53,782 nucleotides of DNA from a virus, in IMG/VR virus record IMGVR_UViG_3300020470_000010, positions 1 through 53,782 of that record; one strand, written 5' to 3'. Below, in pieces: positions 45,727-47,904 of the stretch. Position 1 is the stretch's first letter, and each line of letters begins with the position of its first letter. The notes under the pieces were generated by a model. The model ran no database searches and was not told the DNA's origin. It saw only the letters and a list, made by a program, of their open reading frames with translations. Both the position numbers and the translations under genes were made by a program.

Positions 45727-45834
45727 ATGACACCTGAAGCAGAGAAGTTCAATGGCTGGATGGCGATGCTTGGTATCGTTGCAGCTTTCGGAGCTTATAG
45801 CGTAACTGGTCAAATCATTCCTGGAGTTTTTTAA
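45727..45834 (+). CDS. hli: High-light-inducible protein 1 (35 residues)
   Basis: ATG 45727, 35 codons. Single transmembrane chlorophyll-binding helix of the HLIP/ELIP type: KFNGWMAMLGIVAAFGAYSVTGQ with the NG...AM.G core and the TGQIIPGVF ending. It binds chlorophyll or carotenoid at photosystem II and dissipates excess light. Shorter than a host HLIP. Stop shares a base with the next start. Confidence 0.8.
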   Translation: MTPEAEKFNGWMAMLGIVAAFGAYSVTGQIIPGVF

Positions 45835-45953
45835 TGAAGAAAACTAATATTGATATCTGGTTACGTTCTAATGGACGTGCAGCCATGATGTTCTTTTGGA
45901 TCGTATCTGGTTCATACGTATTAACTGGACAACTTGTTCCTGGAGTGTATTGA
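45834..45953 (+). CDS. hli: High-light-inducible protein 2 (39 residues)
   Basis: ATG overlaps the TAA of the first hli gene. Core SNGRAAMMFFWIVSGSYVLTGQLVPGVY: NGRAAM kept, but the usual Gly after M is Phe, so chlorophyll binding could differ. Stop TGA overlaps the next start. Confidence 0.75.
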   Translation: MKKTNIDIWLRSNGRAAMMFFWIVSGSYVLTGQLVPGVY

Positions 45954-46150
45954 TGACTTCTTCTACTGTTACTACCGAATACGGTAAGCAGAATATTTTC
46001 GGCAAAGAAACTCAACCTCAAGTTATGGAAGACTACAAAGGTTACATCGAAGAAGCTGAATTAGCTAATGGCCGCTGGGCAATGATCGGGTTTGTTGCTC
46101 TTATCGGAGCTTACTTGACTACTGGCCAAATCCTTCCGGGCATCTTCTAG
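45953..46150 (+). CDS. hli: High-light-inducible protein 3 (65 residues)
   Basis: ATG 45953 overlaps the previous TGA (an earlier open frame start at 45896 is out of reading for hli 2). Canonical ELANGRWAMIGFVALIGAYLTTGQ core and PGIF ending. N-terminal 35 residues are a soluble extension. Its last 90 nt are antisense to the exonuclease gene. Confidence 0.88.
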   Translation: MTSSTVTTEYGKQNIFGKETQPQVMEDYKGYIEEAELANGRWAMIGFVALIGAYLTTGQILPGIF

Positions 46151-46897
46151 GATCTTCTTAGCTAGTCGTTCTTCTTCCTTGATCTCCCAGTATCTACGTA
46201 CTTTTTGTAGCCACTTCTGCTGAAATCTTTGAAGTTCGTCTCCTCGCAAGAGGAAGCTTTGGTTGGTCTGAGGAGTTGAAACGACTATTTGAGCTGCATC
46301 AATGTCGAGATCTAAGGTCTCCTTGATAGCTAATGAGTAGGCTCCTAATTGCATTGAGCATTTAGTGAATTTACTCCAACCTGTAAAGTTTTGTCGGTTA
46401 TCTTTATCAGGAAAATATCGACAGTAAGGTTGATTGGAAGTTTTGAAGTCTCCTAGGATCATGACTCCGTTCCTTACGCCTATAAAGTCTGGGCAGCCAC
46501 AGAATTGATACTTGTGACTCCAGACTCGAGAGATGCCATCACTGCCGGTTGTGAATTTCCATTTCGGATCTAATGGTTTCTCTGACCAAATGAAGTGATC
46601 ATAACGATCTAAATGTTGAGACAATCCCTCCCAAAATGGTAAATATTGCTCGTCAATCTCTACAGGTATGCCTCGGATGTAGTCTTCACACGCTTTATGT
46701 ACTGCACTACCTCGTGCAGCTGCAGCTTCCAGTCCCCCTGGATTTTTTACATTCCAATTTCGTAGCATATTCTTTGATTTCTCGGAGGCTGTCTTACCGA
46801 GAATGGTGGTCACAGATGGGTATGCTTTTCCTTCGACGTCCGTTGCATAATGTCTCTCCCCGTCAATCTCATATCGGGTCGGTCCGCTCATAGACAA
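46061..46897 (-). CDS. PD-(D/E)XK exonuclease, RecB/Cas4-like
   Basis: 278 residues. RGSAVHKACEDYI (His), GCPDFIGVRNGVMILGDFKT (D...D-x-K core) and CSMQLGAYSLAIKE (Q-x-x-x-Y helix) are the RecB-nuclease motifs. It would resect or process phage or host DNA ends and supply recombination substrates with the SSB downstream. C-terminal 30 residues overlap the third hli gene. Confidence 0.78.
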   Translation of the reverse strand: MSMSGPTRYEIDGERHYATDVEGKAYPSVTTILGKTASEKSKNMLRNWNVKNPGGLEAAAARGSAVHKACEDYIRGIPVEIDEQYLPFWEGLSQHLDRYDHFIWSEKPLDPKWKFTTGSDGISRVWSHKYQFCGCPDFIGVRNGVMILGDFKTSNQPYCRYFPDKDNRQNFTGWSKFTKCSMQLGAYSLAIKETLDLDIDAAQIVVSTPQTNQSFLLRGDELQRFQQKWLQKVRRYWEIKEEERLAKKILEDARKDLASSQVSSDKSNKPDHCPAAIS

Positions 46898-46948: not shown

Positions 46949-47200
46949 TTACTTATTAGCAGTAAATATATCTTGAGCGAAGTTTCTTTCGGGTGGTTTT
47001 TCTGCCCATTCGGGATGTTCACGAGCGACGTTACTAGCTGCTCTAGATACAACTTCTACAAGTTTGGGATCAGAAGCCTCGACTGAAGGATCGACAGGTT
47101 GCTGTTGTTGTTCTTTTTGAGCTTTATCTCGAGCTGCTTTTTGCAACTGTAAAACATAATCTCTTGCGTTTTGCTCTATTTGATTGATGTCGGTAGTCAT
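46949..47200 (-). CDS. Small Gln-rich helical protein, unknown
   Basis: 83 residues with a coiled-coil N-terminus (QIEQNARDYVLQLQKAARDKAQKEQQQQ) and a short Pro/Trp-rich end. Start ATG 47200. No family recognised. It lies just downstream of the structured RNA terminator. Confidence 0.5.
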   Translation of the reverse strand: MTTDINQIEQNARDYVLQLQKAARDKAQKEQQQQPVDPSVEASDPKLVEVVSRAASNVAREHPEWAEKPPERNFAQDIFTANK

Positions 47201-47230
47201 GCTTTTATTTTGTATAGCTTGATTGTAGTA

Positions 47231-47279
47231 GGGAAAAAGAAATCCGACCTCTTGCCAGTCCTATACAAGAGATCGGATT
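47231..47279 (-). terminator. Rho-independent terminator, minus strand
   Basis: Stem 7 bp + mismatch + 6 bp: AATCCGA (47241-47247), CTCTTG (47249-47254) with CAAGAG (47266-47271), TCGGATT (47273-47279). Read on the minus strand it is followed by TTTCTTTTT. It ends transcripts of the structured region 47280-47500. Confidence 0.85.
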
Positions 47280-47467
47280 ACTTCTGGGAATTCAACAATT
47301 GCACTTGTTTGAATCGACTTATGCCTTGTTCTTACTTGTAGCCTTCTAGGGGAACTTGCCTCGGATCACTACAAGTCTGCGATGAGACCCTTTGAGTAAT
47401 TAACCATACAGGACAGAGAAATGACTATTGCAGTAGTCAAGGTGATGTCTTCGATCCGAAAGGCATC
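47241..47467 (-). ncRNA. Candidate structured non-coding RNA with own terminator
   Basis: A 299-bp gap (47201-47499) without genes holds, in order on the minus strand: GATG..TTCG/CGAA..CATC (47444-47467), GACTA/TAGTC (47423-47438), GTCT/AGAC (47375-47388), CTTGTAG/CTACAAG (47335-47375), ATTCAA-CAA/TTG-TTGAAT (47290-47314) and the terminator hairpin. Six non-overlapping helices in 230 nt plus a terminator point to an RNA product. Strand is set by the terminator. No known family recognised (tested by eye against glnA, photoRC and wcaG motifs). Confidence 0.6.
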
Positions 47468-47499
47468 TTCTCTGCAACTCGGGAGAACGTTTAATGAGG

Positions 47500-47904
47500 T
47501 CATGCTTCCTCTGGCTGCCCAGAATTTTTATCTTTATCGTCGGTCATCCATTCCATAAATTCCAAACTCTTTTTAACGAGGTCTTTGCCTCCTTGTTCGC
47601 TGCGATAAGCATTTAATTCTTCTAATACTTGGTTCGATAGCATGATTGAACCTTTCATTAACTCAGTCAAGTCGATATCTTGATTATTAAGTCGTACTGC
47701 TAATACTGGTCCTAAGACACTGAGATAAGCAGTAGTCATGGGATCTGTTACATATCCATTAAAAGATGAGCCACCAGAAGTGAAGCCGTTAAGAACATAG
47801 AGTTGTTCGGTTTGAAGCTTGAGTAGTTTATCAATCTTCGTGTTCAGAGCTTTAAGCTCTTCCACTACAGCTTCAGGTCTAGATGGTGAGGTCATCAAAA
47901 TCAC
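47500..47904 (-). CDS. Unknown protein upstream of the ncRNA candidate
   Basis: 134 residues. Helical N-terminus (EAVVEELKALNTKIDKLLKLQTEQLYVLNGF) and a C-terminus rich in acidic/Lys residues (KNSGQPEEA). No motif. In the replication module; it overlaps the next gene by 26 nt. Confidence 0.5.
   Translation of the reverse strand: MILMTSPSRPEAVVEELKALNTKIDKLLKLQTEQLYVLNGFTSGGSSFNGYVTDPMTTAYLSVLGPVLAVRLNNQDIDLTELMKGSIMLSNQVLEELNAYRSEQGGKDLVKKSLEFMEWMTDDKDKNSGQPEEA

Follow-up and report, generated by a model that had tools for sequence, protein, structure and literature searches.

GOLLD and ROOL, which are partly phage-borne, are several hundred nucleotides in length, as is OLE. These RNAs belong to the large, ornate RNAs of bacteria (PMC12286853). 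From marine cyanobacteria and cyanophages, the manA, wcaG, PhotoRC-II and psbNH motifs have been described as structured RNAs; manA and wcaG are located in the 5' UTRs of metabolic genes and were found in T4-like cyanophages (PMC2864571). CfrI of cyanophage S-PM2 is an antisense RNA, which is defined by its complementarity to the 3' end of psbA (cited in PMC9602691). For S-CREM1, RNA listings based on Rfam are given (PMC9964418).

The minus-strand gap in the window

The window, i.e. the whole analysed stretch of 53,782 nt, contains a minus-strand gap of 299 nt (47201-47499), which is flanked by the stop of a 134-aa ORF at 47500 and by the start of an 83-aa ORF at 47200. The sole in-frame ORF in this gap encodes 44 aa (47369-47503), and its start overlaps the upstream stop as ATGA. 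A coding role of this ORF was rejected, because its frame is broken by indels of 16-17 nt in the nearest relatives L001 and L002. An earlier note had read the gap as a structured minus-strand RNA with its own intrinsic terminator and without plausible ORFs. Covariation, detection by a model built without the window, and the unconserved frame of the 44-aa ORF all bear out this reading. The coordinates are summarized in the table.

Features of the RNA gap and its neighbours in the window
Feature	Coordinates	Strand	Evidence or remark
p134 (134-aa gene)	47500..47904	-	upstream neighbour; syntenic anchor of S-EIV1-like clade
83-aa gene	46949..47200	-	downstream neighbour of gap; 248-aa gene in its place in L001
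recombination exonuclease gene (exo)	46061..46897	-	downstream; PHROG 298, E=2.4e-34
structured ncRNA region, window variant	47234..47499	-	R1 E=5.5e-9, R2 52 bits; homologous gap in L001, L002, L213; 5' end not defined, 47499 being the gap edge
conserved core: P5 hairpin, P6 stem, P6-P2 junction	47325..47390	-	held-out model match, positions 1-71 of 71; covariation
P5 hairpin GUCU-CAUCGC-AGAC, conserved hexaloop	47375..47388	-	A6/A7 columns 5-16: 100% paired, 3/3 pairs covary
P6 5' strand CUUGUAG	47369..47375	-	A7 columns 17-23; two-sided changes in 6/7 pairs
P6 3' strand CUACAAG	47335..47341	-	partner of 47369..47375; A7 covariation
proposed P2 5' strand GUUCU, then CCC as in most relatives	47484..47488	-	pairs with 47328-47332 in predicted fold
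proposed P2 3' strand AGAAC, immediately 3' of P6	47328..47332	-	predicted fold; family-level P2 support
CAUAAGUC, counterpart of (G)UAAGNCC element in P1 internal loop	47316..47323	-	R3 alignment
helix CAGAGAA/UUUCUCUG, 5' strand	47468..47475	-	at place of P3; kept in close relatives
helix CAGAGAA/UUUCUCUG, 3' strand	47414..47421	-	pairs with 47468..47475
hairpin with loop GUGCAA	47288..47315	-	L001/L002 loop is UUGCAC, the reverse complement
intrinsic terminator	47234..47278	-	14-bp stem and U-tract; stem kept in L001, L002, L213 via wobble change

Contigs of the clade were gathered through proteins related to p134 and to the exonuclease. The order p134, gap, exo was found in about 30 contigs of S-EIV1-like cyanophages, many of whose gaps are non-coding, 190-470 nt long and have motifs in common; one RNA was present in the conserved gap in 21 of the copies examined. 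In most of these relatives exo follows directly after the RNA gap, with neither the 83-aa nor the 248-aa gene in between. S-EIV1, the nearest cultured relative according to the exonuclease, does not possess the arrangement of p134, gap and exo.

The 83-aa protein and the 248-aa protein of L001 (3690-4436) have an NPEW/HPEW...AQ.IF motif in common near their C-terminal parts. Short high-light-inducible (hli) genes are clustered on the plus strand of the window (45727-46150), convergent with exo.

Conserved fold and distribution of the RNA family

The core of 13 marine copies was aligned with the family of the window left out (A6). In this alignment P5 and the 7-bp stem P6 are paired in 100% of the cells with two-sided changes in 7 of 10 pairs, and the covariation score amounts to 0.728, compared to at most 0.164 when the partners are slid. 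A covariance model search on related phages had been suggested in the earlier note as a check. The model derived from A6 (R1; 13 relatives, window excluded) finds the held-out window at 47325-47390 on the minus strand (E=5.5e-9; next best match in the 53.8 kb E=0.2), and compensatory changes occur in P5 and P6. R1 also matches the held-out contigs L001, L002, L213, L024 and L031, again at the syntenic position.

Both neighbouring genes persist without the RNA in L028, L030, L043 and L166, which indicates that the RNA is dispensable. In L160, which is devoid of the structured RNA, a tRNA-Cys-like gene (2288-2358) fills the gap before exo, and the site may thus accept different RNA genes. A further non-coding region of 466 nt at the same syntenic place (L010 3535-4000, equal to L034 3888-4353) is very strongly structured (z=-5 to -6). 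The family models do not recognize this region, the GTGTAAGTCC element is retained in it, and it may be a highly diverged family member or a different RNA. The RNA and the cyanophage synteny also occur in L213-L215 (PAZU01 contigs), which are part of a public MAG under the name Euryarchaeota archaeon SP67; evidently, these contigs are a phage contamination of the bin.

A DNA pattern from the core was scanned over IMG/VR and returned 46 stretches, most of which are confirmed by R1. Since these loci were picked by the pattern itself, their E-values are inflated, and their membership rests on the unselected parts (P1, P2, P4 and GTAAGNCC). L253 was rejected as a false positive; it lies in a coding frame and reaches E-values of about 1e-5 to 1e-4 by chance. 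Outside the pattern, the remaining loci also possess the closing helix P1, the helices P2 and P4, and the GUAAGNCC element. Across 46 aligned copies (A7), 99.3% of the core cells are paired and 9 of 10 pairs show changes on both sides; the covariation score is 0.771 versus at most 0.085 with slid partners.

The portal proteins of group B are near those of Cyanophage KBS-S-2A and S-H1 (75% identity) and of Prochlorococcus phages MED4-117 and MED4-184 (61%), and the portal of group C is near that of Synechococcus phage S-CBS4 (39%). Judged by these relationships, both groups are cyanophage lineages distinct from that of the window. The family spans three or more cyanophage lineages, which differ in their portal or neighbour genes. 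One match per record was obtained in 19 of 20 records; the first step of the genome-collection scan is insensitive and missed the window itself with R1, so that a negative from it carries little weight and a second copy could be overlooked. No family match was obtained in KBS-S-2A, S-H1, MED4-117, MED4-184, S-CBS4, S-CBS2, S-CBS3, PSS2 (first 50 kb covered by cmsearch) and S-EIV1 (12.7-kb part covered), and a DNA BLAST search with four representatives returned nothing but chance matches among the cultured phages.

The full architecture was derived from 14 copies of groups B and E, aligned over about 190 nt (A8). Nine helices with 43 pairs were obtained, in which 93.6% of the cells are paired and two-sided changes occur at 22 pairs; with slid partners at most 46% are paired. 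The helices comprise P1a and P1b with an internal loop (C-A / GUAAGN), the small hairpin P1c, P2, P3, P4, P5 and P6. The family fold consists of the closing helix P1 (GGGGC / GUAAGUCCCC with its internal loop), P2, a P3/P4 arm, the hairpin P5 with the conserved hexaloop, and the stem P6. P2 has support of its own: for its 3' strand, the upstream complement has a mean length of 6.58 nt, whereas swapping of the partners gave 4.89 nt and no more than 5.32 nt in 300 shuffles. In most copies GCC or CCC comes directly after this complement. The full-length model R3 (43 pairs), which was built from A8 and hence from distant lineages only, recovers, along its entire length of 194 positions, the copies of groups A and C as well as the marine S-EIV1-like ones (e.g. 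L041, E=1.6e-17); the latter copies had been found by synteny and not by the sequence pattern. Taken together, these RNAs appear to be about 190-260 nt in length and present as single copies in uncultured cyanophages.

A kissing contact between the loop of P4 (UCGG) and the hexaloop of P5 (UCGA) is plausible in many copies. It was rejected as a family feature because it is not universal (L224, L249, L031), and no covariation is claimed for it.

Searches for known RNAs remained negative. The covariance models of Rfam 15 gave no match at the gathering threshold in the window or in seven relatives, only chance matches below the threshold in the window and L010 (E 0.33-3.2), and none in 11 distant members even with a cutoff of E=0.5. 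ARAGORN detected no tRNA or tmRNA gene in the window; among the relatives it detected only tRNA-Cys genes in L160 and L027, both of which are without the family RNA. A published description of the family was not found in the literature, of which mostly non-subscription papers were covered, so that this is not proof. On these comparisons the RNA family lies outside any known RNA family, and no new mechanism is claimed; in the earlier note, the RNA of the gap could not be fitted by eye to a known cyanobacterial RNA family.

The window copy as a reduced variant

By R1 and R2 the window belongs to the new family, and it possesses the P5/P6 core with the hexaloop, followed by AAG. The hexaloop is CAUCGC in the window and CRUYGA in most relatives. 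Besides P5, P6 and the AAG junction, the UAAGUC element and the terminator are retained, whereas the P3/P4 domain is gone. R3 aligns end to end with the window with this domain deleted, and the score reaches just 18.8 bits, with E=0.008 in 753 kb. Going by these alignments, the window copy is a reduced, divergent and shortened variant of the family, and its reduced form and low full-length score make a lost or changed function possible. The GTAAGNCC element is found 3' of the core in 36 of 47 family members.

Some parts of this copy are less certain than the core. P2 is tentative in the window, because it is invariant in the nearest relatives and is placed elsewhere by the R3 alignment; P1 is likewise uncertain. 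The helix CAGAGAA/UUUCUCUG shows a one-sided change from G-C to G-U in L002, with retention of the pairing. The six helices that had been proposed in the earlier note are not all shared by the family. Those of the P5/P6 core covary. The hairpin 47423-47438 is missing from L001, L002 and L213, and the hairpin 47288-47315 and the terminator are features of the window's own subclade. The stem of the hairpin 47288-47315 is perfect, and the change from GTGCAA in the window to TTGCAC in L001 and L002 corresponds to a local inversion between the stem arms.

The whole gap region folds with z=-3.66, and none of 200 shuffled sequences was equally good. If the terminator is removed, z is -0.67 and 57 of 200 shuffles are equally good; the folding energy is therefore weak evidence for the rest of the fold. 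The case for an RNA in the window is thus a comparative and not a thermodynamic one. A terminator is located downstream in 14 of 47 family copies, compared to about one expected from shuffling.

The window copy alone could be a non-functional, decaying relic of the family, to which the missing P3/P4 domain and the indels that close relatives show in the 5' part would correspond. This is most improbable, since the P5/P6 pairing and the terminator are maintained in the subclade with wobble or compensatory changes.

Possible function and comparison with known RNAs

The RNA lies on the same strand as the neighbouring genes, and in most lineages its 5' end is just past the upstream stop codon, with P1 starting within a few nt of it. 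This position and strand, together with the terminal terminator, would suit a 3'-UTR element, which stabilizes or terminates the mRNA of the upstream operon without an independent RNA. In the earlier note the gap had also been considered a long 3' UTR of 47500-47904. The position right after the upstream stop agrees with this, but as a full account it is unlikely, because the RNA stays conserved across lineages that have different upstream genes. Moreover, a stabilizer needs no hexaloop, junction and multi-helix architecture conserved across lineages, and a mere 3'-UTR element is quite improbable.

The downstream gene varies as well and encodes the exonuclease, the 83-aa protein, the 248-aa protein, or secreted-type or other proteins; the 83-aa and 248-aa genes replace each other even within the subclade of the window. 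A CGTTACATT(A) motif occurs 19-43 nt before the start of exo in nearly all relatives, irrespective of whether they have the RNA (e.g. L035 4072-4080, L034, L024, L028), and is probably the exo promoter (-10 TACATT) or an operator. These observations bear on a cis-acting riboswitch or attenuator of the next gene, whose domain would sense a ligand or protein, with the terminator or the start codon as expression platform. The order of domain, terminator and gene in the window clade and in group A would be in accordance with such an element, and so would group B, in which about 25 nt separate P1 from the start codon and no clear terminator hairpin is present. Against this, a constant, functionally related downstream gene is not seen, as the genes differ between and within lineages; the promoter-like motif of exo is situated between the RNA and the start codon also in phages without the RNA, and a search by eye for antiterminator complementarity found none. 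Cis control of a single gene is therefore disfavoured, and the riboswitch is unlikely. The same evidence favours a free-standing RNA acting in trans.

An element acting at the DNA level or as a primer, e.g. an origin transcript for replication or a recombination site, is suggested by the adjacent genes, which are those of SSB and the exonuclease in the window clade and, for some members of group B, exo or the gene of an annealing protein. It is highly unlikely: G-U wobbles and compensatory changes preserve the pairs in the manner of an RNA, and the group A copies are located near the terminase instead.

It is rather probable that the gap contains a divergent copy of a new family of cyanophage noncoding RNAs, free-standing, terminated and acting in trans, likely with a protein partner. 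For this explanation, homology, conserved secondary structure, conserved position, the terminator and one match per genome are established. The parts that we infer are transcription, action in trans, the protein partner and the timing. The RNA would be transcribed on the strand of the neighbouring genes past the upstream stop, ended by the terminator before the next gene and released as a free-standing molecule. It would then work in trans in the replication or recombination stage of infection, most likely by binding to a phage or host protein via its conserved loops and junctions. A protein partner is suggested by the conservation of loops, internal loops and junctions. Antisense pairing with host or phage transcripts, as in the regulatory small RNA that the earlier note had also considered, is conceivable; the conserved multi-helix fold with these elements resembles an RNA that binds a protein or is structured for another purpose more than a simple antisense sRNA. 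That the RNA is an active machine, namely an RNP or ribozyme-like particle or a decoy which captures a host factor at the replication stage, is rather unlikely; if true, it would be an undescribed use of structured RNA by phages.

A conserved, apparently single-copy and dispensable RNA in phages of picocyanobacteria suggests a function at the RNA level in the infection of major photosynthetic organisms of the ocean. With the covariance models, the family can be found in any genome or metatranscriptome, and its expression, hosts and function become directly testable.

Like GOLLD, ROOL and OLE, the family is a structured noncoding RNA of unclear function, but it is much smaller and has no match in Rfam even at permissive E-values. 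As a single-copy, structured RNA it resembles 6S RNA, tmRNA and RNase P RNA, from which the negative Rfam and ARAGORN results in the window and the relatives separate it. With manA, wcaG, PhotoRC-II and psbNH it shares the occurrence in cyanophage and marine sequences; the Rfam models of these motifs give no match to it, and unlike manA and wcaG it is located in siphovirus-type lineages at varied loci. Finally, CfrI is also a noncoding RNA of a cyanophage. It is set apart by its description through complementarity to psbA, whereas a conserved multi-helix fold next to replication or packaging genes defines the family presented here.
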